This document shows, in pieces, positions 132 through 41,825 of a DNA stretch of 42,366 nt; the first letter of the stretch is position 1, and every line of letters starts with the position of its first letter. Where the stretch lies: contig JACRBX010000058.1 in the NCBI GenBank assembly GCA_016219225.1, positions 1-42,366 on the forward strand, given 5' to 3'. The stretch is from Deltaproteobacteria bacterium. GTDB lineage: Bacteria > Desulfobacterota > RBG-13-43-22. The notes beneath the pieces are model-generated. The model was not told the DNA's origin. It worked only from the letters and a program-made list of their open reading frames with translations, and did not search any database. The position numbers were made by a program, and so were the translations under genes.

Positions 132-1445
132 TTATCTTTTTATGATTTTTTTTGCAGGCTTCAAGCCATGAAGAATAAATTCAATGACATCCCTGATCAG
201 GGCATCGGAAATTTTTGTCTGCGGGGCATCGGGCCAGACGATCCACTTCAAAGCGATGAAATGCATATACCCGATAAGGGACCAGGCCAGAAAAGTCGAA
301 GGCAGATGGCGTATCTCCCCCTTTTGTATCCCCTGGTCGAGTCCTCTGATATAGCCCTCAGATATCTTAATGTAGTACCAGAGCGCAACGTCCTGATTGA
401 TCATCTCAAATTCAGGGACTATCCTGTAAATCCATTTGTGGTGGTGAATGAAATCAAAACTGGTCAGGATCGCGATGCGCTCGACATCCCTTCGGTCGTC
501 AACCTTCATGACGGCCCGCTGCAAATCCCTCCGTATAAGATGATTAGCGTATTTCACCAGTCCCTCGAGGAGTTCGCTCTTGCTCTCATAATGAATGTAA
601 AAAGTGCCCAAGGCAACGCCGGCTTCGCGGGTTATGTCGGAAATATTGGTGCGATTGACTCCCAACTGCCCGAACATTTTTTCTGCAGCCAGCAGGATCA
701 TCTGCCTTGTTTTCTCTCCCTTGGTCAACGGTTCGTCCTCTCCCGGCCTTATGGGATCGGGATTCGGTCTGTTCAGGATATCCCAGTCTCGCGGTTTATT
801 CCACCGGGCCGGACCGCTGATGCCATTGATCGCTAAATCCGTGATCAAATCGACCAGGGTCTCTTTGGAGAACCCCTCCTTTACCTTAGTCTTTCTTAAC
901 GGCTGGAAATAGCAAATCCCGATTAACCCATAGGCGACAATATCCGGATCCACCGGTCGAATATTCTCCGAGTGCGCTTCCCTCCTCAGGAAGTCCCGAA
1001 AGTACCCTGCTATGAATTCATAATAGGCGATGGTCACCCGGTCGATAAGTTCCGACTCTCCCAATATCCTATGGAAGGCAAAATGATCGCGGGTATGGGA
1101 GTAAAGGAGACGAATGACCTCTCTCAAGCGGCCCGGGAAGTCTAACCCTTGAAGCTTCAAGGAGGAGGCCTTCTCCGTAAAACGAAACCGGATCAGGTCG
1201 TTCATTTCGAGAAACACCTGTTCCTTGTTATTAAAGTATTTATAAAAGGTAGCCAGGGACACCTGGCATCGACGAGTGATTTCTGAAATGGAAGATTTAT
1301 AATAACCCATTTCTTTGAAAACCTCGTGGGCGGTATCAAGGATAGCGGCCCGGGTGGCCTCTCCTTTGGTTCCGAGAGAGCGTCCGGAACGCGAATTTCG
1401 GGGTGATGCCAAGATATCAGGGTTCACGGAAGTGTCATGCCTCAT
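132..1445 (-). CDS. TetR/AcrR-type regulator with two fused repressor units
   Basis: This predicted cytoplasmic transcriptional regulator of 437 residues is about twice the usual TetR length of roughly 200. Two complete TetR_N helix-turn-helix domains are visible. The first spans about residues 29-76, with recognition-helix region SLATFYKYF. The second spans about 244-291, with ALGTFYIHY. Each is followed by an all-alpha stretch of about 140-150 residues that looks like a ligand/dimerisation domain. The protein is therefore a tandem fusion that could act as a built-in pseudodimer. Its target and ligand are unknown. It lies downstream of the BaeSR-like pair on the same strand, separated by a 260-bp spacer. 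The start is the only ATG before the first domain. Confidence 0.9.
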   Translation of the reverse strand: MRHDTSVNPDILASPRNSRSGRSLGTKGEATRAAILDTAHEVFKEMGYYKSSISEITRRCQVSLATFYKYFNNKEQVFLEMNDLIRFRFTEKASSLKLQGLDFPGRLREVIRLLYSHTRDHFAFHRILGESELIDRVTIAYYEFIAGYFRDFLRREAHSENIRPVDPDIVAYGLIGICYFQPLRKTKVKEGFSKETLVDLITDLAINGISGPARWNKPRDWDILNRPNPDPIRPGEDEPLTKGEKTRQMILLAAEKMFGQLGVNRTNISDITREAGVALGTFYIHYESKSELLEGLVKYANHLIRRDLQRAVMKVDDRRDVERIAILTSFDFIHHHKWIYRIVPEFEMINQDVALWYYIKISEGYIRGLDQGIQKGEIRHLPSTFLAWSLIGYMHFIALKWIVWPDAPQTKISDALIRDVIEFILHGLKPAKKIIKR

Positions 1446-1705: not shown

Positions 1706-2374
1706 CTATCCCGTCTCAAACTTATACCCTACCCCGTAAACGGAATGGATAAATCCCTGGCCGGGGCTGACGGCGGCTATTTTTTTCCGCAGTTTTTTGA
1801 TGTGGCTGTCGATGGTCCGGTCGCTGACGATCCGTTCATCCGGATAGATATGGTCCATGAGTTGCTGACGTCCGTACAGGCGGCCGGGATGGGCGGCCAG
1901 GAAATGGAGCAGCTTGAACTCCACGGCGGTGAGTTCCAGATCTTTACCATCCAGGGTGGCCTGATACCGATTTTCGTCCAGGACCAGCCCCTGGGCCTGG
2001 ATCGTCCGGCCGTCGGCGGTCCGGCGCAAGACGGCCTTGACCCGGGCCACCACCTCCCGGGGGCTGAAGGGCTTGCAGATGTAATCATCGGCCCCGAGTT
2101 CCAGACCCAGCAGACGGTCGATCTCTTCGATCCGTGCCGTTACCATGATGATCGGCACCCTGGAAAAGGTGCGTAGTTCCTTGCAGACTTCCAGGCCGTC
2201 CCGACCGGGGAGCATCAAATCCAGGAGTACAAGATCCGGCTGGTACTCCCGGGCCCAGGGCACCACCTCCAGACCGTTTCCGAGACAAAAGGAATCAAAT
2301 CCGGAGGCCTTCAGATAATCGACCAGAAGACTGGCCAATTTCGGTTCGTCTTCGACAATCAATATGGTCCCCAT
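1706..2374 (-). CDS. baeR: OmpR-family response regulator, BaeR-like
   Basis: Two-component response regulator. The N-terminal receiver domain has phospho-acceptor D52 (in LVLLDLMLPG), the acidic pair in EDEPK, the conserved Thr of MVTAR and K101 in YICKPFSPRE. A C-terminal winged-helix DNA-binding domain follows (about 125-222). The run IEEIDRLLGLELGADDYICK is very close, from memory, to E. coli BaeR, which controls envelope-stress and efflux genes. ATG at 2374 is preferred over ATG at 2383. It forms a TGATG overlap with the kinase stop and leaves a sensible distance to AAGGA. It should receive phosphate from the kinase encoded immediately upstream. Likely targets are the Spy-like and MacAB-type genes on the other side of the kinase. 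Confidence 0.92.
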   Translation of the reverse strand: MGTILIVEDEPKLASLLVDYLKASGFDSFCLGNGLEVVPWAREYQPDLVLLDLMLPGRDGLEVCKELRTFSRVPIIMVTARIEEIDRLLGLELGADDYICKPFSPREVVARVKAVLRRTADGRTIQAQGLVLDENRYQATLDGKDLELTAVEFKLLHFLAAHPGRLYGRQQLMDHIYPDERIVSDRTIDSHIKKLRKKIAAVSPGQGFIHSVYGVGYKFETG

Positions 2375-3816
2375 CAGACGCATCCTTCGACATCGGGGAG
2401 GATGATTTGTATCTCCAGCCCCCCTCGGGGCGAGGGGCGGGCCACAACAGTCCCCCCATGGGCCTCGACGATATTTTTGCAGATGGCCAGACCGAGCCCG
2501 GCCCCGCCCAGAGCCCGGCTCCGGGATGTTTCCACCCGGTAGAGACGGTCGAAAAGCCGGTCCAGATCCTCTTCCGGCACTCCGGGGGCCGAATCTGCGA
2601 AGGTTATTTCCGCCAGACCCTTACGGCAATCCAGACGGATAAACAACTCCCCTCCCGGATCCGTGTATTTCAAGGAATTGTCCAAGAGGTTGATGAAAAG
2701 CTGGTGCAAACGCTCTGCATCGGCCCATAGAGAGATCTTGAATCCCTCGGGGAAATGCGTGTTGAGACGGATACCCTTACCGGACATCTCGGCCTGAAAA
2801 GGTAAAAGGGCGTCCCTCAGGACTTCAGCTAAATCCAGCCATTCCTTCCGGTAGGTCAGTGCCCCGAGATCGGAGAGAGCCAACTGATAAAGATCATCAA
2901 TCAGACGATGAAGCCGAAGGGCCTCGGCATGGAGCGACCGGATCGCATCCGGATTAATAGGGCGTATCCCCTCCAGTAAAGCCTCTATTTCACCCCGCAG
3001 GACGGCCATTGGGGTCCGCAGCTCATGGGAAATGTCGGCGACCCACTGGCGGCGGGCCTTTTCATTCTTCTCCAGGGTCAGGGCCATGCTGTTAAAATCC
3101 TGAGCCAGTTGTCCCAATTCATCGCCAGTCTTACCCGAAGAAGAGACCGGGACGCGAACGGCATACTTTCCGGAAGCCAGTTCGCGGGTGGCCCCAGCCA
3201 GAGCCCTGATGGGCCGGACCAGACGGTTGGCCAGGGGCAATGAGAACAGCACCACCACCAGCAACAACCCCAAGGCCGAAAGGATCAAAGCCGATTTCTG
3301 CCGGGTTAAAAACTGAAGCTGTAGGGGGTTGAGAAACTGTATTGGAGGCAGCCCCCCGATATAACCAATGGTCTCCTTATTGTGGACGATGGGCCTGAAA
3401 CTCCTCTCCCTGAGATCTTCGGTGGTTCCAAAGAGGGGATTGCGGTTGGCGTCCAAAACAATAAAAGGCCATCTGGGGCGGTGCGGGCCCAGGGGCGGCG
3501 GGGGCGGTGGTGGTACTTCCAGTCTCTTTTCGAAGGCCTTCCTTTTCCAGGGGTCGACATGATCGGATTGGGCATTCAGCAAACGTCCAATCCAGATTTC
3601 CGGATTATTCCGCAAGAAATCCCAACTGCCCTGTTCGGCATAGGCCTGTTCCAGACTTTTGGCCGTCTTCTCGAGCCGGCCTTGCTCCAGGGCGTTGAGA
3701 TATTGGATGAACCCCCGATTGATACTCCACTGCATGATGAGGAACATACACAGCAGGGCCAGACAGGTGGCAGCAAGGATAGAGAGAAAAAGGCGATAAC
3801 GGATACTCAGTTTCAT
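2374..3816 (-). CDS. baeS: Sensor histidine kinase, BaeS-like
   Basis: Inner-membrane sensor kinase of 480 residues from the chosen ATG. The order is: TM helix at about 5-29; periplasmic sensor region with seven consecutive prolines near residues 102-108; second TM at about 173-197; HAMP; dimerisation box ISHELRTP with phospho-acceptor H264; N-box NLLDNSLKY; glycine-rich ATP-lid motif GGAGLGLAI near the C-terminus. Every catalytic element looks intact. The frame is also open to a TTG at 3840, but that has no ribosome binding site, whereas the ATG at 3816 has AAAAAGA upstream and begins right before the first TM. It is translationally coupled to the response regulator. The proline run in the sensor is unusual and its meaning is unknown. 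Confidence 0.92.
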   Translation of the reverse strand: MKLSIRYRLFLSILAATCLALLCMFLIMQWSINRGFIQYLNALEQGRLEKTAKSLEQAYAEQGSWDFLRNNPEIWIGRLLNAQSDHVDPWKRKAFEKRLEVPPPPPPPLGPHRPRWPFIVLDANRNPLFGTTEDLRERSFRPIVHNKETIGYIGGLPPIQFLNPLQLQFLTRQKSALILSALGLLLVVVLFSLPLANRLVRPIRALAGATRELASGKYAVRVPVSSSGKTGDELGQLAQDFNSMALTLEKNEKARRQWVADISHELRTPMAVLRGEIEALLEGIRPINPDAIRSLHAEALRLHRLIDDLYQLALSDLGALTYRKEWLDLAEVLRDALLPFQAEMSGKGIRLNTHFPEGFKISLWADAERLHQLFINLLDNSLKYTDPGGELFIRLDCRKGLAEITFADSAPGVPEEDLDRLFDRLYRVETSRSRALGGAGLGLAICKNIVEAHGGTVVARPSPRGGLEIQIILPDVEGCV

Positions 3817-3904
3817 GATCTTTTTAGATAATCTTACCAATAACGATTTCAGTATTATAATAATTTTGTCCGGTGAAGCAAGCCCTAAACGCCTTCCCGG
3901 GAAT

Positions 3905-3948
3905 TTCCCTTTAATTTCCTTATTTCTTCCTTATTTTAGCCATAGTTG
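3905..3948. promoter_or_regulatory. 11-bp direct repeats upstream of baeS (site A)
   Basis: Consecutive 11-bp units are TTCCCTTTAAT (3905), TTCCTTATTTC (3916), TTCCTTATTTT (3927) and AGCCATAGTTG (3938). OmpR-family regulators commonly bind direct repeats with about one helical turn of spacing, and related sequences recur at 6004 and 8014. The site is about 90 bp upstream of baeS, which is transcribed away from it, so autoregulation is likely. It might also have served a plus-strand gene now lost near the IS remnant. The rest of the 3817-4119 spacer shows only a weak plus-strand promoter candidate (TTGACA at 4076-4081, 17 bp, ATTAAG). Confidence 0.55.
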
Positions 3949-4119
3949 TCCTCTAATGATGCCATCAAAAGAATAATCATTCTTCTAACCGCCGATTAAA
4001 AAAGGCAGGAAAAAAATTCGCCCTTGGGAAAAAAATACCTGCCCCTCTGCGAAATGGACGGTCCTTTGCCTTTCGTTGACAGGCTGAATCTATTTTTCAT
4101 TAAGTTACGTTAAAAAAAA

Positions 4120-4403
4120 ATGAATAAACGTAAAACCTATACGGGCGACTTCAAGGCTAAAGTGGTTTTAGAATTAATCCGTAATAGAAAGAGCCTGACC
4201 GAACTGGCCGCTCAATATGAACTGCACCCCAACCAGATCAAAAACTGGAAATCCCTGCTCCTGAAACAAGCGGTCAAACTCCTCGATGACAAAAGGCGGG
4301 CAGGAAAACTAAATCAATAGGGAGTTGAAGCCTTGTTTTAAATTCCATTCTGTAAAAATGAAGCCGTGCTATCGAAAAACTCTATGCAAAAAAAGATAAT
4401 TTG
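4120..4403 (+). pseudogene. Decayed IS3-family transposase orfA
   Basis: The open part (4120-4320, 66 codons) is an HTH_Tnp_1 type OrfA N-terminus. It has the pattern TGDFKAKVVLELI, then LTELAAQYELHPNQIKNWK, typical of IS3-group OrfA. Intact OrfA is usually about 90-110 residues. After the stop, a shifted frame at 4368-4403 reads AIEKLYAKKDNL, matching the usual OrfA C-terminal helix (EKLYAKIGQL-like). The gene has therefore been frameshifted and broken. No OrfB and no clear terminal inverted repeats are visible, so the element is dead. It marks a past insertion between baeS and the EF-hand gene. Confidence 0.75.
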
Positions 4404-4558
4404 ATCCCTTGCATCACCCTTTCTTCCGACTCATTGGGAGAATCACCTTTGAATCCCGAACCCTTGGCCCTTTGAATCCTCCAAATCATCACCAACTCTT
4501 CTGGAATGATCCGCAAAGTGTTGTCAGGCATAACTTATCGAAATTGAAAAATGTAAGA

Positions 4559-4574
4559 TGGCATCGTGGTTGCT
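4559..4574 (+). promoter_or_regulatory. Sigma-54-type (-24/-12) promoter candidate
   Basis: TGGCAT (4559-4564), five bases, then TTGCT (4570-4574) closely fits the RpoN consensus TGGCAC-N5-TTGCW, including the invariant GG and GC spacing. It lies about 138 bp upstream of the EF-hand gene and reads towards it. Nothing else was recognised in the 4404-4711 spacer apart from an AGGAGG-like sequence at 4613-4618 without a convincing ORF. RpoN promoters need an AAA+ activator; none is encoded in the window. Confidence 0.5.
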
Positions 4575-4711
4575 TTATCCGCCTATGAATTCCAATAACC
4601 GATCAGCCATAAAGGAGGTGGGTATCAAATATTTATCATTAAAAGAATCTATGACCCGGTAAAGGCCGAATTGCTTTTAACCACGAACCAACATCTAAAA
4701 GGAGGTTATTT

Positions 4712-5458
4712 ATGTCAAGCAGCATCGGCAGCATAGGCGGCCTGGGCAATAACAATTACCTGTTTCAGATGAATGCCCGGCCCATGCAACAACGTCAGGA
4801 TGATCTATTCAGCCAAATCGACAGTGACAGCAGCAGCGGGATAGATAAAACGGAGTTTTCCGTCTTTGCCAAGAAACTATCTCAGGATAGCGGAAATTCC
4901 ATCGATGTGGATGATGTTTTTTCCACTTATGATACGGACGGCGATGGGTCTTTGAGCAGTGATGAGATAAAGAGCTTCATGCAGGATAATCCACCCCCGC
5001 CGCCTCCTAACGGCATAAGCGGCGGCCCCCAGGGCCCGGACGATCTGTTCGCTAAATTAGATGGTAACAGTGACAGCGGGATCGACAAGTCCGAGTTTTC
5101 CACCTTCTCCGAAAAGCTCTCGGAGGATACGGGCAACACTATCAATGTGGATGATGTTTTTTCCATCTATGATACGGACGGTGATGGGTCCTTGAACACG
5201 GAGGAGATGAAGTCCTTCATGAAGGATAACGCTCCCTCCCCTCCTCCGCCGGGCCAAATGCAACAGGCCGCATCGGCCTATGGGACAGACCAGAGCAGCG
5301 ACCAGATGTCTACTCTGCTGGACTTGCTTAAGAACATCTCCGACCTGGTTGGATCAAGCGCCAATGGTAACGGCAGTTCCATAAGTACCTATCTATCGAA
5401 GGTCATGGAAACCATCAGCAACGGGGGGGGCAGCTCAGTGCTCAATGTAACCGCATAG
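4712..5458 (+). CDS. Four-EF-hand calcium-binding-type protein, duplicated
   Basis: A 248-residue protein with four EF-hand loops: residues 37-48 (DSDSSSGIDKTE), 74-85 (DTDGDGSLSSDE), 117-128 (DGNSDSGIDKSE) and 154-165 (DTDGDGSLNTEE). Loops 2 and 4 have near-ideal calcium ligands; loops 1 and 3 are less regular. The two halves (about 30-100 and 109-180) are internal repeats, each ending in a proline run, and are also very similar at DNA level, so the duplication is recent or homogenised. A Ser/Gly/Asn-rich C-terminal tail follows. There is no N-terminal signal peptide. AAAAGGAGG lies just upstream of the ATG. Its function is unknown; calcium signalling, buffering or non-classical secretion are possibilities. 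It appears monocistronic, with a sigma-54-like promoter before it and a hairpin after it. Confidence 0.9.
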   Translation: MSSSIGSIGGLGNNNYLFQMNARPMQQRQDDLFSQIDSDSSSGIDKTEFSVFAKKLSQDSGNSIDVDDVFSTYDTDGDGSLSSDEIKSFMQDNPPPPPPNGISGGPQGPDDLFAKLDGNSDSGIDKSEFSTFSEKLSEDTGNTINVDDVFSIYDTDGDGSLNTEEMKSFMKDNAPSPPPPGQMQQAASAYGTDQSSDQMSTLLDLLKNISDLVGSSANGNGSSISTYLSKVMETISNGGGSSVLNVTA

Positions 5459-5526
5459 AACACCTTTCCGCCCTCTCCTGGCAAGTTCAACGTTTATGCC
5501 TTGGCTTTGGAGGGCGCTTATGACAC

Positions 5527-5565
5527 AAAAAGGACCCCATTTCCTTTAAAGGAATGGGGCCCTTT
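5527..5565. terminator. Hairpin terminator after the EF-hand gene
   Basis: A long imperfect inverted repeat pairs AAAGGACCCCATTTCC with GGAATGGGGCCCTTT around a TTTAAA centre, with one mismatch and one bulge. It lies about 70 bp after the stop codon. The following U-tract is poor (TTTGCCTT), so termination efficiency is uncertain. It could work in both directions. Confidence 0.6.
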
Positions 5566-5699
5566 GCCTTGAAAGGATGGTTGACCAAAAAAACCACATC
5601 CGGACCAAAGTGGCCCTAAAAATGCAGAGTACGATTCGATCAATCAGAGAGAGGAGCCGAGTTCATGAACTTTAAGCTGGATCGCCTATCGACTGCCGA

Positions 5700-5876
5700 C
5701 AAAGCGTCATCAAGCAGGAAAGCCCCAAAACAAAAACACTCTTTATGAGTGGCTATACGGCCGACGTGGTTCTCGGCAAGGGGATCGAGGAACGGGAAAT
5801 CGATTTTATTGCCAAACCGCTGTCGCCCGATGAATTCATGCTGAAGGCAGGAAAAATACTCAACAAACAGGGGTGA
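5700..5876 (+). pseudogene. C-terminal fragment of a receiver domain
   Basis: An open frame without a start codon reads QSVIKQESPKTKTLFMSGYT, then continues through FIAKPLSPDEF to a TGA at 5874. This is the beta4-to-alpha5 half of a CheY-like receiver: the conserved Ser/Thr region in FMSGYT and the Lys-Pro of AKPLSP are present. The phospho-acceptor half is absent. The MSGY form is typical of receivers attached to hybrid histidine kinases. No kinase part was found upstream, so this is a remnant left by deletion or insertion. A longer minus-strand ORF over the same bases (5640-6113) has no recognisable features. Confidence 0.7.
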
Positions 5877-6003
5877 TCCATTACAAAAAACAAAAAGGCT
5901 CCTTCCCCACATAGGGATACATCGCAGACCACACTTAAAAAGGCTGTATCTTTTCATAGTCCGTTCAAAAAAAAACCAACATCCCTGAGTTCTCCAAATA
6001 ATT

Positions 6004-6037
6004 TTCCTCATTTCTTCCTTATTCCTGCCACACTTCC
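6004..6037 (+). promoter_or_regulatory. 11-bp direct repeats upstream of the glycosyltransferase (site B)
   Basis: Units TTCCTCATTTC (6004) and TTCCTTATTCC (6015) are followed by TGCCACACTTCC (6026). They align with sites A (3916) and C (8014) without gaps. The site is about 120 bp upstream of the glycosyltransferase start in the same orientation as site C. It is a candidate BaeR-type operator. The rest of 5877-6154 holds no recognised feature. Confidence 0.5.
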
Positions 6038-6154
6038 ATCCTATTCTTGAACTTAGGAAACCCGGCCTGGACAAAAAACTGAAAAGGGATATGAAAGGCC
6101 GTCGAGACAACACTTAAACAAGGGGGGGGCCTTCTATCTCCTTTGGGTGAAACC

Positions 6155-7318
6155 ATGTACAATATTTTACATACAGAATGGTCAAAAGGATGGGGTGGCC
6201 AGGAGATAAGGATCATTCAGGAATCTCTGGAATTCATAAAGAGAGGTTACCGAATGATGATCGCTTGTCAGCCCGGAAGCCGGATTATCTTGGCTGCAGA
6301 AGAAAGCGGCATCCCTGTTATTCCTTTAAAGATGAGAACGCCCTTAGATCCTTTAGCTATCTGGCAATGCCTTCAGATCATAAAAAGAAATTCGATTAAC
6401 CTGGTTCACACCCACAGTTCAGTCGATAGTTGGTGCTGTTCCATTGCCGCCAAGTTGTCAGGCCTTCCGGTTATTCGAAGTCGTCACATCAGTGCACCCA
6501 TCCATCCCAACTATTTTTCCTTCTTTTTATATATGAAATTGGCCGACCGGGTTATTACCAGCGGGAAAATGATCAAAGAAAAAATGGTCAAAGTGAATGG
6601 ATATGATTCCCAAAAGATAGTTTCTATTCCTACGGGGATCAACGAAAAAACATGCTTTCCGGAACCCAGTAAGCAATGGGCCAGAGAGGAGTTTAATATA
6701 GAAAAAAATGATTTCCTTTTAGGGATCGTCGCCATGCTGAGGAGATGGAAAGGGCATCTTTATCTCTTGGAAGCTATAAAAACATTACAGAAGAAGATAC
6801 CCAACATCAGATTGATTATCACCGGGGACGGCCCGCAGGAAAAAAATATCAGGGACTATATTACCTACAACGGTCTAACCCAAACCGTGATTATGACCGG
6901 TTATCGAAATGAGGTACCTCAAATTCTTAACAGCCTGGACTTATTCGTGCTTCCCTCCTATGCTAATGAGGGAATTCCGCAGGCCATCCTTCAGGCCATG
7001 GCTTTGGGGATTCCGATCATCTCCACCTTTGCCGGAGGTATCGAAGAAGTAATACAGAATGGACAGACCGGGACGCTGGTTCCCCCGCGGAATGTTCAAG
7101 CTTTAAGCGAAGCCATTGATCGGGTGTACCGAAACAGAGAGGAAAGCTTGAAAATGGCTCATAGTGCCCGGGAGTCAATCTTGAATCATTTTTCATTTAG
7201 AGGCATGGCCGATAATACCGAAAATGTTTATAGGGAAGCATTGGAAAGGAACCGTCCTGAAAACGTTGATATTTCCCCCATCAGAATTAAAACGGTCAAA
7301 GGTTTTCGAAATTTATAA
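6155..7318 (+). CDS. Family-4 glycosyltransferase (GT-B fold)
   Basis: Predicted cytoplasmic, retaining glycosyltransferase of 387 residues. The N-terminal Rossmann half begins MYNILHTEWSKGWGGQE with the glycine-rich acceptor-side loop. The C-terminal half carries the nucleotide-sugar site: GIVAMLRRWKGH, ITGDGPQ, then NEGIPQAILQAMALGIP. In the usual EX7E motif the second Glu is replaced by Gln (E272...Q280), a departure from the common pattern. A TTG at 6143 would add four residues, but the ATG at 6155 matches the expected start of the first strand. It is not part of a polysaccharide cluster; site B upstream suggests it belongs to the envelope-stress group. Donor and acceptor cannot be predicted. 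Confidence 0.88.
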   Translation: MYNILHTEWSKGWGGQEIRIIQESLEFIKRGYRMMIACQPGSRIILAAEESGIPVIPLKMRTPLDPLAIWQCLQIIKRNSINLVHTHSSVDSWCCSIAAKLSGLPVIRSRHISAPIHPNYFSFFLYMKLADRVITSGKMIKEKMVKVNGYDSQKIVSIPTGINEKTCFPEPSKQWAREEFNIEKNDFLLGIVAMLRRWKGHLYLLEAIKTLQKKIPNIRLIITGDGPQEKNIRDYITYNGLTQTVIMTGYRNEVPQILNSLDLFVLPSYANEGIPQAILQAMALGIPIISTFAGGIEEVIQNGQTGTLVPPRNVQALSEAIDRVYRNREESLKMAHSARESILNHFSFRGMADNTENVYREALERNRPENVDISPIRIKTVKGFRNL

Positions 7319-7362
7319 TACATCGACATCCTTTATAAATTGAAAGGATGGAAGGCAACGCA

Positions 7363-7833
7363 ATGAAAGGTAAACTCAAAATCCGGACGATCGCTTTAAT
7401 TTTAATTCTAATGGCCGGTCCGGTTCATGCCTTTGGCCCGGGCACCAGGGGCCAAGGTGGTTTTACGCGCGGGGGAGGCAGGCCAACTGAAAATAGATTA
7501 CTGAACCTCACCCCGCAACAGGAGCTCAAGTTAAATACTTTGCGGGGAAAATTCTTGGACGAGACCATATTTCTTCGAAGCGATATATCAAAGAATCTAT
7601 TGGAACTTCGAATTCTTTGGAAAAACCCAAATCCGGATAAGGATAAGATTAATACCCAAAAAAAGGGAATTATGGAGTTGTACACCCGGTTCCAAATCAA
7701 GGCCACTGAAAATAGATTAGAGGCTCAAACTTTTCTAACCCCGGAACAGGTGGAAAAATTACCAGTTTTTGATCTGCGTTTGGATATAGAACCCTATTTG
7801 GGCCTTGGTCCCAAGACCCCTTCCTCAAATTGA
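7363..7833 (+). CDS. Periplasmic Spy/CpxP-like protein (LTxxQ motifs)
   Basis: A 156-residue exported protein. The signal peptide ends at VHA (about residue 23), followed by a Gly/Arg-rich linker. The helical body holds two LTxxQ motifs, LTPQQ near the start and LTPEQ near the end, the hallmark of the Spy/CpxP family of periplasmic chaperones and stress sensors. Charged helices with heptad character lie between them. ATG at 7363 is preferred over ATG at 7348, because GGAAGG lies correctly before the former and the signal peptide follows directly. E. coli spy is a BaeR target, which fits the BaeSR-like genes nearby. Sequence similarity to Spy is low, so metal-sensing or other LTxxQ proteins are alternatives. 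Confidence 0.75.
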   Translation: MKGKLKIRTIALILILMAGPVHAFGPGTRGQGGFTRGGGRPTENRLLNLTPQQELKLNTLRGKFLDETIFLRSDISKNLLELRILWKNPNPDKDKINTQKKGIMELYTRFQIKATENRLEAQTFLTPEQVEKLPVFDLRLDIEPYLGLGPKTPSSN

Positions 7834-8013
7834 CCAAGTTTATATTTTTTTCTGTTTAACACTCTTTGAAACGAAAAGAAGTGATCCATGAATATTTTTT
7901 ATTTTCCAACAAAACGGAAGTGTTGGATATTCGACTTTCTTATCCTGCTGTTAGAAGTGGTGGTTTCGTTCTTCCCCAAACGATTAAGATTTATTTTTGT
8001 ACCGAAGAATTAA

Positions 8014-8060
8014 TTCCTCATTGCTTACTTATTTTAGCCATATTTATTGGCTATTATAAT
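8014..8060 (+). promoter_or_regulatory. Promoter with 11-bp repeats and a palindrome (site C)
   Basis: Units TTCCTCATTGC (8014), TTACTTATTTT (8025) and AGCCATATTTA (8036) continue the 11-bp pattern of sites A and B. They run into a perfect inverted repeat, TAGCCA-N7-TGGCTA (8035-8053). A perfect -10 hexamer TATAAT lies at 8055-8060, but no good -35 is present. That arrangement is typical of activator-dependent promoters. The E. coli BaeR box, as remembered, also contains CCAT and ATTGGC elements like those here. The start of the Spy-like gene is 61 bp downstream. The frame is open from 7866 to the gene start, but that part resembles no protein. Confidence 0.6.
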
Positions 8061-8120: not shown

Positions 8121-8828
8121 ATGGAAAACAATTGCACGCCGATCCAGGATTCTAAAAATGCAGAGAACGCAACACTGAAAAGACCGTATATCGTAACAGT
8201 TCTTTTTGTCCTGTTCTTAGATCTGGTTTTTCTCTTTATAATGGCCCTCTGGGCCGGAAAGGCTTCAGCCAAAACAGGCGGTCCAATGCCCCCGCCCATG
8301 GGTTTTGGGATGATGGGAGGCGGGAAGCATCCGGAAATGAAGCCCTTTCCGCCCGGTTTGCCGGGCGACGGAATGAGGCTCGAGATGATGATGGATGGCG
8401 GGCACCCGATATGGCGACACATCAGGGATCTCGGGCTTGACGAGAAACAGAAAGGGGAAATACAGGAGTTGAGAAGCAGGGTAATGAAAGAGATGATCAG
8501 GAAAAGGGCCGATGAGCAGATCGCCGGGATGGAGTTAAAAGACCTTCTCGAAAAGGACCCAGTCGATATGAATGCGGTCGAGACGAAGCTTAAACGGATA
8601 GAGATCATAAGAATGGAAATGCACCTTTCCCTCATCAGGGCCGTGGAAGAGGTTAAATCAAAGTTAACACCGAACCAGAGAAAAAAACTCCAGGAGATGC
8701 ATAAAACAAGGCCCGGAATAAGGGAAAGAAGCCGGGAGGAAGAGATGATGGATAATCGTCTGGGCAGGCTTTCGCCTTGGGAGAGGGGAAAGGATGAGGA
8801 TACGGCTCGGGAAATGGGCCACAGGTAA
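8121..8828 (+). CDS. Membrane-anchored Spy/CpxP-like protein with Met/His-rich segment
   Basis: A 235-residue protein. A short cytoplasmic N-terminus precedes a TM or uncleaved signal helix (about 22-43), then a Met/Pro/His-rich segment (about 56-96, with M56, M60, M64, M65, H70, M73, M85, M89-91 and H95). A helical Spy/CpxP-like domain follows, including LGLDEKQ and the LTPNQ motif near residue 180. The C-terminal tail is highly charged. The start at 8121 is chosen because GGAGGA precedes it and the upstream in-frame TTG at 7866 lacks support. The Met/His cluster suggests metal, perhaps Cu(I), binding, as in ZraP/CpxP-type metal-stress proteins; this is inference. Two bases separate it from the outer-membrane channel gene, so it heads the exporter operon. 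Confidence 0.75.
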   Translation: MENNCTPIQDSKNAENATLKRPYIVTVLFVLFLDLVFLFIMALWAGKASAKTGGPMPPPMGFGMMGGGKHPEMKPFPPGLPGDGMRLEMMMDGGHPIWRHIRDLGLDEKQKGEIQELRSRVMKEMIRKRADEQIAGMELKDLLEKDPVDMNAVETKLKRIEIIRMEMHLSLIRAVEEVKSKLTPNQRKKLQEMHKTRPGIRERSREEEMMDNRLGRLSPWERGKDEDTAREMGHR

Positions 8829-8830
8829 AC

Positions 8831-10279
8831 ATGGATTTGGCAATCAAGAGGTCAAGGCCCTGGCTTTCCCTATGGCTCACCATCCTTATCCTCAGCGGAT
8901 GCGCAACCGTAGGACCCGATTATATACCTCCCGCCACGGAGCTGTCGGCCACCTGGCACACCGGGCTCAAAGGGGGTTTGACCGACGATCAGCAGGCCTC
9001 CCGGGACCTGGAAGCCTGGTGGACCCTGCTCAATGATCCGGAACTTTCCAGCCTGGTTCATCGCGCCGTAGCCGGCAATCTCGATCTGAAGAAAGCCCGG
9101 GCCCGGGTGCGGGAGGCACGCGCCCGAAGAGGCCAGGCCAGGGCCGATCACTTCCCCACTCTCGACTTCCAGGCCACGGGCAGCCGGAGCCGCAGCAGCG
9201 AAGCGACGGGAGCCGTTATGACCAGTGATCTTTATGCCATGGGCTTTGATGCCGGCTGGGAACTGGATATCTTCGGCGGTGTCCGCCGCTCCGTTGAAGC
9301 TGCAGAGGCAACTTTCCAGGCCAGTCAGGAAGACTGGCGTGATGTGCTCGTCTCGCTGCTGGCCGAGGTGGCCCTGAACTATGTGGATGTCCGTATCTAT
9401 CAAGCCCGAATGGCCGTGGCCGAAGCAAACCTGGCGTCCCAGGACGAGACTTGCCGGTTGACCTCATGGCGGTATCAGGCGGGTTTGAGCGATGAGATGG
9501 CAGTACAACAGTCCCGCTACAACCTCGAAAACACCCGCTCACAGATACCGTCCCTGCGCACCGGGCTGGAAGAGGCCCTGAACCGCATTGCCGTGCTTCT
9601 GGGAGAACAGCCGGGCAAGATCCATGAGAAATTAAAGAAAAAAGCGCCCCTGCCGGTCACGCCTCTGAGGATCGCCGTCGGTGTGCCGGCCGATGCCCTT
9701 CGTCGCCGACCCGATGTGCGCCGGGCCGAACGGGAACTGGCGGCCCAGACCGCCAGGATTGGTGTGGCCACGGCGGATCTCTATCCCAAATTCAAATTAA
9801 CCGGGTCCATCGGTCTGGAAGCCCTCGCACTCAATAACCTGCTTTCTGCCGGCAGCCAAACCTATAGCTTCGGTCCCGGTATCACCTGGCCGCTTTTCGC
9901 CGGGGGAGCTATCCGCCAAAACATAGAGGTCCAGTCCGTCCTGCAGGAACAGTCATTGATCGCCTATGAAGCCGCCGTGCTCAATGCCCTGGAAGAAGTT
10001 GAAAATGCCCTTGCAGCCTATGCCGAGGAGCAATTCCGCAGGGATGCGTTAAGAGATGCGACTGAAGCAGCGAAACAGGCGGCTGAGCTTGCTCAAAAAA
10101 AGTACCAGGGAGGCCTTACGGATTTCAGTAATGTACTGGAGGCCCAGCGTTCACTCCTGTCATTTCAGGATCAGTTGACCCAGAGCGCCGGGAAAGTGAC
10201 CTCCAACCTGATTCGTTTGTACAAGACCTTGGGGGGAGGATGGACCTCTCTGTCCACCGGCGATGGAAAAAATGATTAA
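8831..10279 (+). CDS. TolC/OprM-like outer-membrane efflux lipoprotein
   Basis: A 482-residue outer-membrane channel protein of the NodT/OprM subgroup. The signal peptide ends in lipobox LSGC with lipidated C24, followed by ATVGPDYIPP, typical of RND-type outer-membrane factors. Two outer-membrane-efflux-protein repeats (about 60-260 and 270-470) are rich in Ala/Glu coiled coil, with the usual RRPDVRRAE motif starting the second repeat. It forms the outer part of a tripartite pump with the membrane-fusion and MacB-type proteins encoded next. It begins two bases after the Spy-like gene, so translation is probably coupled. Confidence 0.93.
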   Translation: MDLAIKRSRPWLSLWLTILILSGCATVGPDYIPPATELSATWHTGLKGGLTDDQQASRDLEAWWTLLNDPELSSLVHRAVAGNLDLKKARARVREARARRGQARADHFPTLDFQATGSRSRSSEATGAVMTSDLYAMGFDAGWELDIFGGVRRSVEAAEATFQASQEDWRDVLVSLLAEVALNYVDVRIYQARMAVAEANLASQDETCRLTSWRYQAGLSDEMAVQQSRYNLENTRSQIPSLRTGLEEALNRIAVLLGEQPGKIHEKLKKKAPLPVTPLRIAVGVPADALRRRPDVRRAERELAAQTARIGVATADLYPKFKLTGSIGLEALALNNLLSAGSQTYSFGPGITWPLFAGGAIRQNIEVQSVLQEQSLIAYEAAVLNALEEVENALAAYAEEQFRRDALRDATEAAKQAAELAQKKYQGGLTDFSNVLEAQRSLLSFQDQLTQSAGKVTSNLIRLYKTLGGGWTSLSTGDGKND

Positions 10280-10296: not shown

Positions 10297-11589
10297 ATGA
10301 AATCAGAATCCCATAGTGAATCGGAGGTTGCCCAGATCCTGGAGATTGATCAATCACCGGCACACCGTAACCGGTTGAAACTATCGTTGATTTTAATTGT
10401 TCTGGTAATCGTTGCCCTGACCGCTGCGGTGATTATCTGGAAAACGGCAGATAAAAACGATAGGGTTCAATATAAGAACCAGGAAGTGAAGCGAGGAAGT
10501 CTGATCGTCATCGTCACGGCCACAGGCACCCTGCAACCGACCAACAAGGTCGAAGTGGGCAGCGAATTATCCGGCATCATCAAAAGTGTTGAAGCAGAAT
10601 ACAACAGCCGGGTAAAGGTCGGCCAGATCCTGGCAAAATTAGACCCATCGAAACTTGAAGCGCAGGTCAAGCAATCCAGGGCCGCCCTGGAATCCGCCAA
10701 GGGAAAGGTCTTGCAGACCCAGGCGACCGTTAAGGAAACCCGCACCAAACTGGAACAGCTTCAAAAAGTCAGAGAGTTGAGCGGCAGGAAGATCCCCTCA
10801 CAATCCGAAATCGATGCGGCTGAAGCGGCCCTTGAACGGGCAACGGCCGATTACGCCAGCGCCAATGCGGCGGTTTTCCAGGCTCAAGCCGCCCTCGACG
10901 CCAATGAGACGGACCTGTCCAAAGCGGTCATCCGCTCGCCCATTAACGGCATCGTACTAACCCGCAGCGTGGAACCGGGCCAAACTGTGGCCGCCTCCCT
11001 TCAAGCCCCGGTGCTGTTTACTCTGGCCGAAGATTTAACCCAAATGGAACTCCACGTGAATGTAGACGAGGCCGATATAGGTAAAGTACAGAAAGGCCAA
11101 AAGGCCACCTTCACCGTTGCCGCTTACCCGAACCGGATTTTTGAGGCACGGATCACCCAGACCCGATATGATGCGTCAACAACGTCGGGGGTCGTGACCT
11201 ATGAAACCGTTTTAAAAGTCGATAACTCGGATTTGTCCCTCCGGCCGGGCATGACGGCTACTGCGGACATCACGGTCAAGAAAGTGGAAAACGCAGTCCT
11301 GGTACCCAGTACTGCCCTGCGCTTTACTCCGCCGGTCCAGGAGGAAAAGAAGCCTTCCACCGGCCTGGTTGGCGCACTGCTTCCGCGGCCCCCCGGTTCC
11401 CCGGCCAAACCGACCGAAAACATTGCCGGCAACAGAAAACAACAGGTGGTCTGGATATTAAAGGACAAAAAACTCTCAGCCGTCCCGGTTACGATCGGGT
11501 CGACAGATGGCAATATGACTGAAGTTATGATGGGCGACCTCAAGCCGGGGATGACGGTCGTGGTCGACACCCTCAGTACGGGGAAATGA
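10297..11589 (+). CDS. macA: MacA-like periplasmic adaptor (HlyD family)
   Basis: A 430-residue membrane-fusion protein. A cytoplasmic N-terminus and one TM anchor (about 27-48) come first. The first half-lipoyl motif (GTLQPTNKVEVGSELSGII) is followed by a long alpha-helical hairpin (about 115-205). The second lipoyl half (IRSPINGIVLTRSVEPGQTV), a beta-barrel domain and a membrane-proximal domain with VPSTALRF complete it. Domain order and the GSELSG motif match MacA. A Pro-rich insertion (about 348-375) splits the last domain. It links the outer-membrane channel to the MacB-type transporter. An AGGA sequence precedes the ATG. The stop overlaps the start of the ATPase gene by four bases. Confidence 0.92.
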   Translation: MKSESHSESEVAQILEIDQSPAHRNRLKLSLILIVLVIVALTAAVIIWKTADKNDRVQYKNQEVKRGSLIVIVTATGTLQPTNKVEVGSELSGIIKSVEAEYNSRVKVGQILAKLDPSKLEAQVKQSRAALESAKGKVLQTQATVKETRTKLEQLQKVRELSGRKIPSQSEIDAAEAALERATADYASANAAVFQAQAALDANETDLSKAVIRSPINGIVLTRSVEPGQTVAASLQAPVLFTLAEDLTQMELHVNVDEADIGKVQKGQKATFTVAAYPNRIFEARITQTRYDASTTSGVVTYETVLKVDNSDLSLRPGMTATADITVKKVENAVLVPSTALRFTPPVQEEKKPSTGLVGALLPRPPGSPAKPTENIAGNRKQQVVWILKDKKLSAVPVTIGSTDGNMTEVMMGDLKPGMTVVVDTLSTGK

Positions 11590-12314
11590 ACATGAAGGCC
11601 TTCAGCCAAAAGGACCATCACACCCTTATTGAGCTTAAGGGCGTGACCAAAATATACGGCACCGGCCAGGCGACCATGCAGGCACTACGCGGCATCGACC
11701 TCCGCATTAAGGAAGGTGATTTCCTGGCAGTGATGGGACCAAGCGGTTCGGGCAAGTCCACTTGCATGAATATCCTTGGCTGCTTAGATACGCCAACTGC
11801 CGGGGTTTATAAATTTAAAGGCCTCGAGGTAGGCAAACTGACCCGCAATCAGCGTACGCGGTTACGCCGGTTTTACCTTGGTTTTATCTTTCAGGGGTTT
11901 AATTTGTTAAACCGCACCTCGGTGCTGGAGAACGTGGAACTGCCCTTGATTTATCGAGGTGTCCCCGCCGGGGTCCGGCGAGCCCGCGCCCTTCAGGCCG
12001 TGGGTATGGTCGGTCTCAAGGGATGGGAAGCCCATACACCGGGCGAACTCTCCGGTGGTCAGCAGCAGCGGGTAGCCATTGCCCGGGCCATCGTCAACGA
12101 GCCTGCCGTGCTGTTTGCCGACGAACCCACGGGTAACCTGGATACAGCCCGAAGCCGTGAAATCATGGATTTGCTCACCGGGCTGAACCGCGACCGGGGA
12201 ATCACCATCGTTATGGTCACTCACGAACCGGATATGGCCGCCTATGCCGGGCGCATGGTCCGTTTTTTAGATGGCCTGGTTGCGTCAGACGAGCAAAATG
12301 GGAGGGAAGCCTGA
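11586..12314 (+). CDS. macB: MacB-like ABC exporter, ATPase subunit
   Basis: A 242-residue cytoplasmic nucleotide-binding protein of the MacB/LolD group. Walker A is GPSGSGKST, the signature is LSGGQQQRVAIARA, Walker B and catalytic Glu are VLFADEPTGNLD, and the switch His is in VTHEPD. The family hallmark LNRTSVLENVELPLIYRGV is present. In E. coli MacB the ATPase and permease are one polypeptide; here they are separate genes sharing one base (12314). It is part of the exporter operon and hydrolyses ATP to drive the mechanotransmission pump. Substrates of the family include macrolides, peptides and lipids; the one here is unknown. Confidence 0.93.
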   Translation: MNMKAFSQKDHHTLIELKGVTKIYGTGQATMQALRGIDLRIKEGDFLAVMGPSGSGKSTCMNILGCLDTPTAGVYKFKGLEVGKLTRNQRTRLRRFYLGFIFQGFNLLNRTSVLENVELPLIYRGVPAGVRRARALQAVGMVGLKGWEAHTPGELSGGQQQRVAIARAIVNEPAVLFADEPTGNLDTARSREIMDLLTGLNRDRGITIVMVTHEPDMAAYAGRMVRFLDGLVASDEQNGREA

Positions 12315-13519
12315 TGCTATGGAACACGATTCAACTGGCCTTGCGCGAAATTAAACGAAACGTCATGCGCTCCGTCCTGACCATCCTGGGCATCGTCATC
12401 GGAGTAGGAGCGGTTATCACCATGGTGACTATCGGAGGAGGCGCCACGGCTCAAGTCAAAGAGCAGATTGCCAGCATGGGCAGTAACATGCTCATGGTTA
12501 CTCCTGGGAAAAGACTCGGACCCGGCCAGTCTTCCAGCGTACCCCTGTTCAAACTGAATGACGCCGAAGCCATCACCAGGGACGTCGGCTCGGTGGCTGC
12601 CGTGGCCCCGGTCTCTTCCCAAAGCCTCCAAGCCGTAAACGGTAATCAAAACTGGTCGACTCAGGTAACCGGAAGCGACAATCAATACTTCAGAGTCACC
12701 AATAGATCCATCCGGTCGGGCCGACCATTTAGTGACGGGGAGTTGCGCAGCGGTGCAGCGGTCTGTATTGTTGGTGAAACGGTGCAGAAAAAACTGTTCG
12801 GCGGACAGGACCCTTTGGGCGGGAATATCCGTCTTGAAAAACTTTCCTGTCAGGTGATCGGGATCCTGGCCGCCAAGGGACAGAACACCATGGGTATGGA
12901 CCAGGACGATGTCGTGGTCATCCCGTTACGGACCTATCAGCGGCGCATTTCCGGTAATCAGGATGTCGCCCTTCTTCAGGTCTCGGTCCGGCAGGGCGCC
13001 TCGACCGATAAGGCGCAGCAGGATATTTGGTCGTTGATGCGGGAGAGGCGCCATCTGTCACCCAGCGATGATGACAACTTCAATGTGATGGATATGAAGG
13101 AAATCGCCAACATGCTTACGGGGACCACCCAACTGCTTACGGCTTTGCTGAGCGCCGTAGCGGCCGTTAGTCTTCTGGTAGGCGGGATTGGTATCATGAA
13201 TATTATGCTGGTATCCGTTACGGAGCGGACCCGTGAGATTGGTATCCGGCTGGCTATCGGCGCTTACGAGCGCGAGGTGCTCATGCAGTTTCTGGTGGAG
13301 GCGGTGGTGCTGTCTTCCTTCGGCGGCTTAATCGGCATCGTGCTGTCGCTTTCCGCCTCGGTCTGGCTGACCGGCATCTTAGGCGTTCCCTTTGTCTTCA
13401 ACACCGGCATCGTCGTTATCGCCTTCCTGTTCTCGGCGGCGGTTGGCGTGATTTTCGGCTATTTCCCGGCACTCAAGGCCGCCCGGCTGGACCCGATCGA
13501 AGCACTTCGCCATGAATGA
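12314..13519 (+). CDS. MacB-like ABC exporter, permease subunit
   Basis: A 401-residue inner-membrane protein of the MacB/FtsX type. One N-terminal TM (about 20-43) precedes a large periplasmic MacB_PCD domain (about 45-240). Three C-terminal TMs (about 270-300, 325-355, 360-390) follow and contain the FtsX-family run GGIGIMNIMLVSVTERTREIGIRLAIGA. The protein ends with the typical LKAARLDPIEALRHE. It pairs with the ATPase in the preceding gene and with the MacA-like adaptor. The operon ends here. No clear rho-independent terminator was seen after the stop; decayed DNA follows. Confidence 0.93.
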   Translation: MLWNTIQLALREIKRNVMRSVLTILGIVIGVGAVITMVTIGGGATAQVKEQIASMGSNMLMVTPGKRLGPGQSSSVPLFKLNDAEAITRDVGSVAAVAPVSSQSLQAVNGNQNWSTQVTGSDNQYFRVTNRSIRSGRPFSDGELRSGAAVCIVGETVQKKLFGGQDPLGGNIRLEKLSCQVIGILAAKGQNTMGMDQDDVVVIPLRTYQRRISGNQDVALLQVSVRQGASTDKAQQDIWSLMRERRHLSPSDDDNFNVMDMKEIANMLTGTTQLLTALLSAVAAVSLLVGGIGIMNIMLVSVTERTREIGIRLAIGAYEREVLMQFLVEAVVLSSFGGLIGIVLSLSASVWLTGILGVPFVFNTGIVVIAFLFSAAVGVIFGYFPALKAARLDPIEALRHE

Positions 13520-38757: not shown

Positions 38758-38853
38758 GCGCAAAGAGCATAGAGCCTGGTGTAAAAACAGGTGTCTCTTC
38801 CTATGCAATCACATCCTGCCCTCGACCCTTTGCTTTATGCCTTATGCTGTCTT
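38758..38853. repeat. Heptanucleotide repeat tract 5 (two short sub-tracts)
   Basis: At 38758-38785: GCGCAAA, GAGCATA, GAGCCTG, GTGTAAA. At 38826-38853: CCCTTTG, CTTTATG, CCTTATG, CTGTCTT. The second covers the stop codon of the large-subunit gene (38842-38844). Both lie in the spacer between the two molybdenum hydroxylase subunit genes. Confidence 0.5.
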
Positions 38854-41295
38854 CCCCAAAGCCCTCAAAATCTTGTCAGGGGTAATCGGAAAGTCATCCA
38901 CCCAGACCCCCAGGGCGTTGTAAACCGCCGGACCGAGAAGGGGGGGCAGGACCGTCGCCACATCCTCCCCAATACCGACGGTCCCATAAGGCCCATACCC
39001 CATGCCCGTCTCCACCAGAATCGTATCAACCGGACCGCAATCGAGCATCGTGGCTATCTTATAGTCCAGAAGGTTACCGTTCAGCATAACACCCGTGGCC
39101 GGGTCATGGACGACTTCTTCGCTCCTGGCCCGGCCGACGGCCATAAAAGTCCCGCCGTACTGCTGGGCTTCGCAGCCCTCCCAACTGATCACCTTACCCA
39201 CGTCATTCACATTGACCACCCTGGTAATCTCCACCTCGCCGGTTTCGGTATCCACTTCGACCTCCATAAAATGGGCCTGCCGGCAAAGACGCAGCCGTAT
39301 GTGGGCATAGGCCCCTTCCTGGACCTGCCAGCCATAGGCAAAGAGCGGGGGCGAATAGGACATCCTCGGCAAGGCCTGCTCATGGCCTATTTTCATCTCC
39401 CCCATACTCATAGGCCCCCCGATCCCAAGGGGTCCCACATATTCCGCCAGGCTCATTCGCTTCGCTGGATCGGCCTTGACGTAAATCACACTGTCCTGGA
39501 TATCAAGATCTTCGGGTTTCAGGCCGGGGAAAGGGGCGGGAAAATTTCCCCGCTGCGATACCCCCCTGGGGCTTGTGGCCGCTTCAAGGATCCGTCTTTT
39601 CAGGATCCGGGCCGCGTTCCGGATGGCGAATCCGTTTACCGCCAGGTTGGTGGAGGAATCAGGAGTATGGGGAAAGAAACCGGTATCATGCTGGGGTCGA
39701 TAGTAAACATCCTCCACCCGCATTCCGAGCTCATCAGCGGCGATCTGACAGTAAGAAGTTTCAGCATTCTGACCGCCATCGGCCCTCATTCCGAGGATGC
39801 TCGCCGTTCCGTCGCTCCGTTCGATACGTATGGCGATTTCGCTCGACCCGGCTGAATCTTCCCATTCATGGGTCCAGGTAAAGGCCAGGCCGTGCATCCG
39901 GCCGTTGGAGAGTTTTCTTTCTCCGGGTCTGTGCCGTTTCGCATCCCATCCTATAGCCGCCTTGCCCTTATCGATACATTCTCTGAGGCTGTCTCTGACC
40001 GGAAAGCTCAGTTCTTCTTTTTGTTTATTGAGCCATCCCATGTCGTGCCCCTCGGCCCCATCATTTTTTAGCGCCACGTCTATGGGATCGAGGCCCAGGG
40101 CATTGGCCACATGATCAAAGACCATGGTCAGGGCAAGGGTATTAGGGGCCTGTTCGCACCGGACCGGAACGGTCGGCCCCTTGTTGATCATGACGGCCTG
40201 CAGTTTTCCATAGAGGTTCGGGATTCTGGTATTCTCCATCAGGTGGCCGATGATCCCGAAAACAGGCGCATCCTGATTACTCATGACCGCCTTGGCCTTC
40301 ACCGCCGTAATGGTCCCGTCCTTTCTGGCTCCGACAGTAAAGGAGTAGAACCCGGCATCGGCCTGGGCGCCGTAGAAATCCTCTCTGCGGGTGAATAGCC
40401 ACTTAACGGGCCTTCTGGTCCTCCTGGCGGCTACGGCGGCGCAATAGGTCCCTCCCAGGTTCCAGTGCATCTGGCTCCAACCGCCGAAGCTGGCCCCCTG
40501 ATAGAGGCAGTGCAACTGGATCCTGTTTGTCGGAATGCCTCCGAACCAGGTGGCAATGGCCCGCTTGCAGATATGCGGCCGCTGCTGCTTGACCCAGACT
40601 TCCGGGTAATCTCCGTTCCATTTGAATACGCCGCAGGGGCGCTCCGGTCCTATCCAGGTGTGGTAAGATCGCCGGCACTGGAACTCGATGACCCGGTCTG
40701 CTTCTCTTAAACCCTTTTCAACGTCGCCCCGTTGATGCACGTCGAGACCTTCATTATAGACATTGCCGTTGGGAAATAACTCGGGGATGGTCAGAGGAGC
40801 GCCGGGCTCCGCAGCCTTCTCCGGATCCAGGAGAAAAGGGCGCTGCTCCCACTCCACCCGGATGAGCTTCAGGGCCTGCTCGGCGATCTCTTCCGTTTCA
40901 GCCGCAATGGCTGCCCCGATCTCCTGACCCTCAAAGTAGGCGATGTGCGGTATAGGGGGCTCGCTGGATGGAAAATGGCCGCCCAGATCGGCAGTCGGTG
41001 GTAACTCCGGATCATCATACCGCAGCACCACCCGGACGCCGGGCAGCGACTCGGCCCGGCTGGTATCCAGGCGCACAACCCTGGCATGGGGATGGGGAGA
41101 GGTCAGGAATCTCATAAAAAGCATTCCCGGCAGATGGACATCCATGGTATAGATAGCGGCCCCGTTGGCCTTCTCCACCCCATCGATCCGGCGAATACCC
41201 CGCCGGCCGATATGGGTGTAGGCATCCAGGGGATATTGATCCGCCCGGATATTATCTACGAGTTCGAGAACCTTTTTTATTGTATCTTGGCTCAT
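38842..41295 (-). CDS. Molybdopterin-binding large subunit, xanthine dehydrogenase family
   Basis: An 817-residue large subunit. The N-terminal a/b-hammerhead domain (about 28-160) starts HIGRRGIRRIDGVEKANGAA. The first Moco domain has LYQGASFGGWSQMHW in place of the common GGGFGGK loop. Later regions include DGGQNAETSYCQIAADELG and the active-site Glu E777 in GIGEDVATV, the base used by Mo hydroxylases. No CO-dehydrogenase AYRCSFR-type Cu loop is visible. It pairs with the FAD subunit encoded next. It would hydroxylate, or reductively dehydroxylate, an organic substrate. A second homologous large subunit lies upstream. Confidence 0.9.
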   Translation of the reverse strand: MSQDTIKKVLELVDNIRADQYPLDAYTHIGRRGIRRIDGVEKANGAAIYTMDVHLPGMLFMRFLTSPHPHARVVRLDTSRAESLPGVRVVLRYDDPELPPTADLGGHFPSSEPPIPHIAYFEGQEIGAAIAAETEEIAEQALKLIRVEWEQRPFLLDPEKAAEPGAPLTIPELFPNGNVYNEGLDVHQRGDVEKGLREADRVIEFQCRRSYHTWIGPERPCGVFKWNGDYPEVWVKQQRPHICKRAIATWFGGIPTNRIQLHCLYQGASFGGWSQMHWNLGGTYCAAVAARRTRRPVKWLFTRREDFYGAQADAGFYSFTVGARKDGTITAVKAKAVMSNQDAPVFGIIGHLMENTRIPNLYGKLQAVMINKGPTVPVRCEQAPNTLALTMVFDHVANALGLDPIDVALKNDGAEGHDMGWLNKQKEELSFPVRDSLRECIDKGKAAIGWDAKRHRPGERKLSNGRMHGLAFTWTHEWEDSAGSSEIAIRIERSDGTASILGMRADGGQNAETSYCQIAADELGMRVEDVYYRPQHDTGFFPHTPDSSTNLAVNGFAIRNAARILKRRILEAATSPRGVSQRGNFPAPFPGLKPEDLDIQDSVIYVKADPAKRMSLAEYVGPLGIGGPMSMGEMKIGHEQALPRMSYSPPLFAYGWQVQEGAYAHIRLRLCRQAHFMEVEVDTETGEVEITRVVNVNDVGKVISWEGCEAQQYGGTFMAVGRARSEEVVHDPATGVMLNGNLLDYKIATMLDCGPVDTILVETGMGYGPYGTVGIGEDVATVLPPLLGPAVYNALGVWVDDFPITPDKILRALGKTA

Positions 41296-41374
41296 TGCCT
41301 GCTTTTGAGAATTAAGCCCTCAGGCCCTCCCGGGGCGTCGTTAATCATGAAAATGGAATAAAAAGAAGCTATAG

Positions 41375-41402
41375 CCTGGATTCCCGCCTTCGCGGGAATG
41401 AC
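41375..41402. repeat. Palindromic REP-like repeat, copy 2 (inverted)
   Basis: CCTGGATTCCCGC-CTTC-GCGGGAATGAC has a perfect 8-bp stem. Read on the other strand it is GTCATTCCCGC...GGAATCCAGG, the same class as copy 1 at 37734. The two inverted copies bracket the large- and FAD-subunit genes. Confidence 0.75.
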
Positions 41403-41483
41403 GGGTTATTACGAGACCATCATAAGTTTTTTTCTATCCCTTGTTTGCTTCTCACCTCGTGCCTCTTGCCCGGTTTTTTTCCA

Positions 41484-41726: not shown

Positions 41727-41740
41727 ATTAAACTACAGTT

Positions 41741-41820
41741 CGGAATTCGGATTTCGGAATTCGGAGTTTAAAGTAAGGTATACGATTTTTTAAACCCTGA
41801 ACCCTGAACCTTGAACCTAT
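41741..41820. repeat. Heptanucleotide repeat tract 6 (two sub-tracts)
   Basis: At 41741-41789: CGGAATT, CGGATTT, CGGAATT, CGGAGTT, then weaker TAAAGTA, AGGTATA, CGATTTT. At 41793-41820: AACCCTG twice, AACCTTG, AACCTAT. The second is out of phase with the first and ends five bases short of the next gene's stop codon (41826). It fills the spacer between the MoaD-like gene and the second large subunit. Confidence 0.75.
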
Positions 41821-41825
41821 TTTCA

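Follow-up and report, generated by a model that had tools for sequence, protein, structure and literature searches.

The genes of the BaeSR two-component system of Escherichia coli end the mdtABCD-baeSR operon, which carries an RND pump, and are autoregulated through the mdtA promoter; ycaC is another gene affected by BaeR. PhoB acts at pho boxes, in which tandem 11-bp direct repeats replace the -35 element at a fixed distance from the -10, and the CpxR box reads GTAAAN5GTAAA. Published BaeR consensuses consist of one 18-bp box or of a 9-mer, TCTNCANAA; the BaeR box is given as TTTTTCTCCATDATTGGC (PMC3915751, PMC3799227). ChIP-exo in E. coli found BaeR at mdtA and spy, but not at acrD (PMC7657598). 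In Acinetobacter baumannii, expression of the MacAB-TolC pump depends on BaeSR, and BaeR did not bind the macA promoter directly (PMC4498774), a result that counts against the reading of the MacAB-type operon proposed below. Here we analyze a 42,366-nt stretch of DNA from a deltaproteobacterium (hereafter the window), in which three matching sites are very probably operators of a BaeR-type regulator that activate rightward transcripts, making up a local BaeSR-type envelope-stress regulon. We regard the system as a new instance, well supported, of an established form of control and not as a new kind.

The regulator gene (1706..2383, minus strand) encodes a 225-aa protein with Response_reg and Trans_reg_C domains (Pfam), and the kinase gene beside it (2374..3816, minus strand) encodes HAMP, HisKA and HATPase_c domains, likely starting at the ATG at 3816 within a frame that stays open to a TTG at 3840. 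An earlier note on this DNA, made from the sequence alone, had called the pair BaeSR, and further comparison supports that identity. BaeR is the best NCBIfam family for the response regulator by 100 bits (326.3, below the cut-off of 380), and BaeS is the best for the kinase (426 against a cut-off of 603; also 416 against 500). These cut-offs are naming thresholds, and because both proteins score below them we write BaeR-type and do not claim a BaeR equivalog. The best PDB match of the response regulator is E. coli BaeR (4b09, E=5.5e-84). In a phylogenetic tree, the window regulator, its relatives and E. coli BaeR form one clade (support 98/94), outside which fall CreB, PhoB, OmpR, CpxR, ArcA and the paralogues from its own genome, and the recognition helices are nearly identical (SDRTIDSHIKKLRKK in the window, TDRTIDSHIKNLRRK in E. 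coli BaeR).

The three sites, placed by the earlier note at 3916 (TTCCTTATTTCTTCCTTATTTTAGCCATA), 6004 (TTCCTCATTTCTTCCTTATTCCTGCCACA) and 8014 (TTCCTCATTGCTTACTTATTTTAGCCATA), are present as it described them, ungapped and on the plus strand, and all lie in intergenic gaps. They are the sole matches in the window to a 29-nt pattern with up to 3 mismatches, which has 0 matches in 100 dinucleotide shuffles of the window; a 20-nt core again returns just these three, where 0.04 are expected. The note had asked whether the motif is scattered through the genome, and pattern and profile scans find just these three intergenic sites. A 27-nt pattern with up to 3 mismatches yields the window sites and no others in the organism's own genome (5.93 Mb, 353 contigs), the reversed control giving 1 match. 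Profile R1, built from 34 aligned sites (31 from relatives plus the 3 of the window), recovers them from the same genome at E values of 7.2e-7, 1.3e-6 and 5.9e-5, with the next match at E=0.12. When the window was excluded and a matrix made from the 31 relatives, its sites scored 39.5, 37.9 and 36.3, against 2.9 for the best non-overlapping position in the window and a null maximum of 15.8. All three sites of the genome thus found lie no more than 4.2 kb from baeS.

Each operator consists of three 11-bp units followed by a putative -10 on the plus strand. Operator 1 (3914..3959) has units at 3917-3927, 3928-3938 and 3939-3949, a degenerate -10 (TAATGA, 3954-3959) and a possible extra upstream unit from 3905; operator 2 (6002..6047) has units at 6005-6015, 6016-6026 and 6027-6037 and the -10 TATTCT (6042-6047); and operator 3 (8012..8060) has units at 8015-8025, 8026-8036 and 8037-8047 and the -10 TATTAT (8052-8057), for which TATAAT (8055-8060) is an alternative. 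An element-anchored alignment of 43 sites gives the form in relatives as three tandem TCCWYATTTSY units and then the -10 TAnnnT, often preceded by the TG of an extended -10. The 11-bp period noticed earlier is plain in the self-match of the element, which reaches 0.64 at shift 11 and 0.69 at shift 22, against at most 0.36 at other shifts. The short third unit reported at the same time (WGCCAYA) describes the window, where this unit has drifted to GCCAYA, but not the relatives, where it is a full 11-bp repeat (TCCAYATT). Since TAnnnT sits at one fixed distance on the side away from baeS in 29 of 33 non-redundant loci, we read the element as a directional operator-promoter that points away from baeS.

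OmpR/PhoB-type tandem operators are marked by units of 10-11 bp arranged head to tail and by a -10 at constant spacing, and this arrangement, along with the match to the E. coli BaeR box described below, agrees with the note's assignment to an OmpR-family regulator. The likeness to the pho box extends to tandem 11-bp repeats in the place of the -35 and to the fixed -10 distance, but the sequence and the regulator differ, E. coli PhoB lying outside the BaeR clade. Whereas the published BaeR consensuses are a single 18-bp box or a 9-mer, the operators of the window and its relatives have three 11-bp units; we found no description of a three-unit BaeR box in the open literature that our search covered, and the operator is sharper and more widely conserved than we found described there.

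A matrix that contained no E. coli sequence was run over 161 kb of E. coli K-12, comprising six stretches, four of them picked as holding or expected to hold BaeR targets, so that the background was 100 kb of arbitrary sequence and the remainder of the four target stretches. The top three places were the promoters of mdtA (28.6), spy (21.4) and acrD (19.8), and the next independent place scored 5.5; the published BaeR box lies within each of the three sites, unaltered or nearly so. At E. coli ycaC no site was found with this operator matrix. In other Enterobacterales loci the best place, if any, was usually at the expected position of the mdtA promoter, with weaker scores and an unchanged distance to the -10. 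The window system therefore resembles the BaeSR system of E. coli and Salmonella in regulator clade, recognition helix, operator, operator-to--10 distance (at the mdtA, spy and acrD boxes) and in having both a Spy protein and an efflux pump among its predicted targets. It differs in that baeSR is divergent from a MacAB-type operon, the pump not being MdtABC, and in the addition of EF-hand and glycosyltransferase genes.

The element is conserved well beyond this genome. Among 80 relatives fetched with the neighboring kinase as query, 35 of the 41 nearest (L025-L065), as well as L069 and L071, have an element scoring at least 30 upstream of the kinase gene. Typically some 100 to 125 bp separate it from the matched kinase start, and in every one of these 37 it lies on the strand opposite the kinase gene; the best reversed control scored 22.2. 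The 41 closest relatives span several phyla. An exact-pattern search of 148 related genomes gave matches near the control frequency, the sites of relatives being visible by profile alone. In these 148 genomes, own genome included, 9 had a site (E<=0.001), 14 had the regulator (E<=1e-60) and 8 had both (Fisher p=5.5e-9, or 5e-7 without the two family members, a figure that ignores relatedness); 6 had the regulator without a site at these thresholds, and 1 had a site without the regulator. Site and regulator lie within a few kb on one contig in 7 of the 8 genomes with both (own genome counted), and two genomes of the same genus, G001 and G002, have neither at these thresholds. The note's proposal that the regulator is encoded beside its sites is supported. 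In a Geobacteraceae genome (L052, genome G154) the strong sites (E<1e-4) number at least six and are spread over several contigs, forming a regulon larger than that of the window.

How the operators might work can be proposed from their anatomy. Phosphorylated BaeR would bind head to tail on the three 11-bp repeats, on one face of the helix, with units 2 and 3 covering the place of the -35 hexamer and TAnnnT starting 4 nt past unit 3. Because of this placement, bound BaeR would be expected to recruit sigma-70 polymerase much as PhoB does at the pho box. Binding, activation and the inducing signal at the three sites are what we infer from sequence.

Operator 2 would activate a GT4-type glycosyltransferase gene (6155..7318, plus strand; Pfam Glycos_transf_1), the first gene after it, together with a gene for a periplasmic Metal_resist protein of the CpxP/Spy superfamily (7363..7833, plus strand; PF13801), which is likely cotranscribed across a gap of 44 nt. 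As neither gene occurs in the cluster of any fetched relative, this target is proposed from the window's own genome. Operator 3 would activate a Spy-like gene (8121..8828; LTXXQ/Metal_resist by Pfam and NCBIfam), again the first gene after the operator, and with it genes for an outer-membrane efflux protein of the NodT family (8831..10279; Pfam, NCBIfam), a MacA-type periplasmic adaptor (10297..11589; Pfam, NCBIfam) and a MacB-type ATPase (11586..12314) and permease (12314..13519; both NCBIfam), all on the plus strand. The earlier note had named the glycosyltransferase and Spy-like genes as downstream of these two sites and had predicted a compact envelope-stress regulon, the Spy-like gene leading into the MacAB-type pump; the analysis supports these proposals. 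The predicted control of a MacAB pump parallels A. baumannii, but here the predicted operator stands directly before the MacAB-type operon.

The genes that follow the element in relatives encode Spy/LTXXQ-like proteins, small PPPEAxxAC proteins and, in Geomonas, a proline-rich exported protein (first-ORF calls in these GC-rich loci were partly spurious, and the likely gene was assigned by closer inspection). In four loci (L025, L029, L030, L045) the element is followed by an outer-membrane channel gene that starts a MacAB-type operon. The divergence of the regulator genes from a small periplasmic Spy/CpxP-like gene in many relatives recalls CpxAR-cpxP, but CpxR falls outside the BaeR clade in the tree and its box is unlike the window operator. 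In the nearest family member (G004, locus L045) the pump operon is directly divergent from baeSR, whereas in the window about 4 kb of additional genes and two more operators separate them; on this account the window order looks derived. The order in L025 is intermediate: baeSR, operator, receiver gene, EF-hand gene, operator, pump operon. Toward its ends the window also encodes a 437-aa regulator whose single chain contains two TetR DNA-binding domains (132-1445, minus strand; two PF00440 stretches) and, at 38842-42269 (minus strand), a molybdenum hydroxylase-like large subunit and after it a second, incomplete version of the C-terminal part (41826-42269), an identification made on sequence alone.

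Operator 1 would activate a rightward transcript to an EF-hand gene (4712..5458, plus strand; Pfam EF-hand), its candidate target, from which it is now separated by a transposase remnant (4118..4318, plus strand; a 66-aa IS OrfA-type helix-turn-helix, Pfam HTH_Tnp_1). Because the remnant intervenes and the -10 of operator 1 (TAATGA) is poor, this branch may be decaying. The EF-hand gene is present in single copy in its own genome and absent from G001-G003; it has relatives in the BaeSR cluster of G004 and in that of G150, where one frame holds two matching halves, and the cluster of L048 also includes an EF-hand gene. The protein barely reaches the NCBI cut-off for XopAW (120.3 against 120), a family whose namesake is a calcium-binding type III effector; no other feature in the analysis suggested an injected protein, and the name is probably misleading. 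A receiver-domain fragment with no start lies downstream (5720-5876, plus strand; TLFMSGYTADVVLGKG...FIAKPLSPDEF), and since the corresponding position in L025, between operator and EF-hand gene, is occupied by a response-regulator gene, the fragment may be a remnant of such a gene. In two Cellvibrionaceae-like genomes (L095:9293 and L097:9296, both plus strand), a BaeR-type site stands before the gene of an exported EF-hand protein that belongs to another family.

The earlier note had implied that site 1 serves as the promoter of baeS, and here our reading departs from it: the operator faces away from baeS in all 37 relatives in which it scores at least 30, its -10 in relatives is on the far side, and baeS appears to have its own promoter (3854..3881, minus strand; TTGCTT at 3881-3876, a 16-nt spacer, TATAAT at 3859-3854), from which baeSR would be transcribed leftward. 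Site 1 may nonetheless affect baeSR from a distance. A stronger version, in which operator 1 chiefly serves baeSR autoregulation, with binding about 67-101 bp ahead of the baeS transcription start, could draw on the fixed place of the operator before baeS and on the autoregulation of E. coli baeSR; we consider it unlikely, given that no conserved -10 faces baeS (no single spacing on that side accounts for more than 7 of 33 loci), in contrast to the fixed -10 on the other side, and that the orientation of the operator relative to baeS never flips in relatives.

Might the sites instead belong to some other OmpR-family regulator, CpxR-, PhoB- or CreB-like, and lie beside baeSR by accident? Response regulators are numerous in the genome (132 matches, whether to the receiver or to the entire protein), and direct repeats are common among OmpR-family boxes, but the site tracks the BaeR-type regulator across genomes, adjoins its gene in relatives and equals the E. 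coli BaeR box, while same-genus genomes that have the other paralogues but lack the BaeR-type regulator also lack the site, which leaves this alternative very improbable. A reading of the three sites as a short repeat or mobile element, or as chance similarity with no regulatory role, is scarcely credible: the transposase remnant between sites 1 and 2 could hint at mobility, but the flanks of the sites cease to resemble one another beyond about 34 nt, and the element is kept in position with its -10 across phyla and is absent from shuffled sequence. Operators of the BaeR-type regulator encoded alongside thus remain the explanation we prefer.

A broader reading, to which we give roughly even chances, has two parts. 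In the first, three 11-bp direct repeats and a fixed -10 make up an ancient BaeR operator shared across phyla, and the 18-bp and 9-bp consensuses in print each capture a piece of it; in the second, a calcium-binding EF-hand protein is a long-standing but overlooked member of BaeR regulons outside Enterobacterales. The three-unit anatomy could explain why the two published consensuses differ and, if true, EF-hand membership would tie BaeSR to divalent cations. More generally, these data extend a regulon described in enterobacteria to groups that include Thermodesulfobacteriota and Nitrospirota, providing a precise operator that can be used for scans and predicted new targets (an EF-hand protein, a glycosyltransferase and a MacAB pump) in organisms without genetics.
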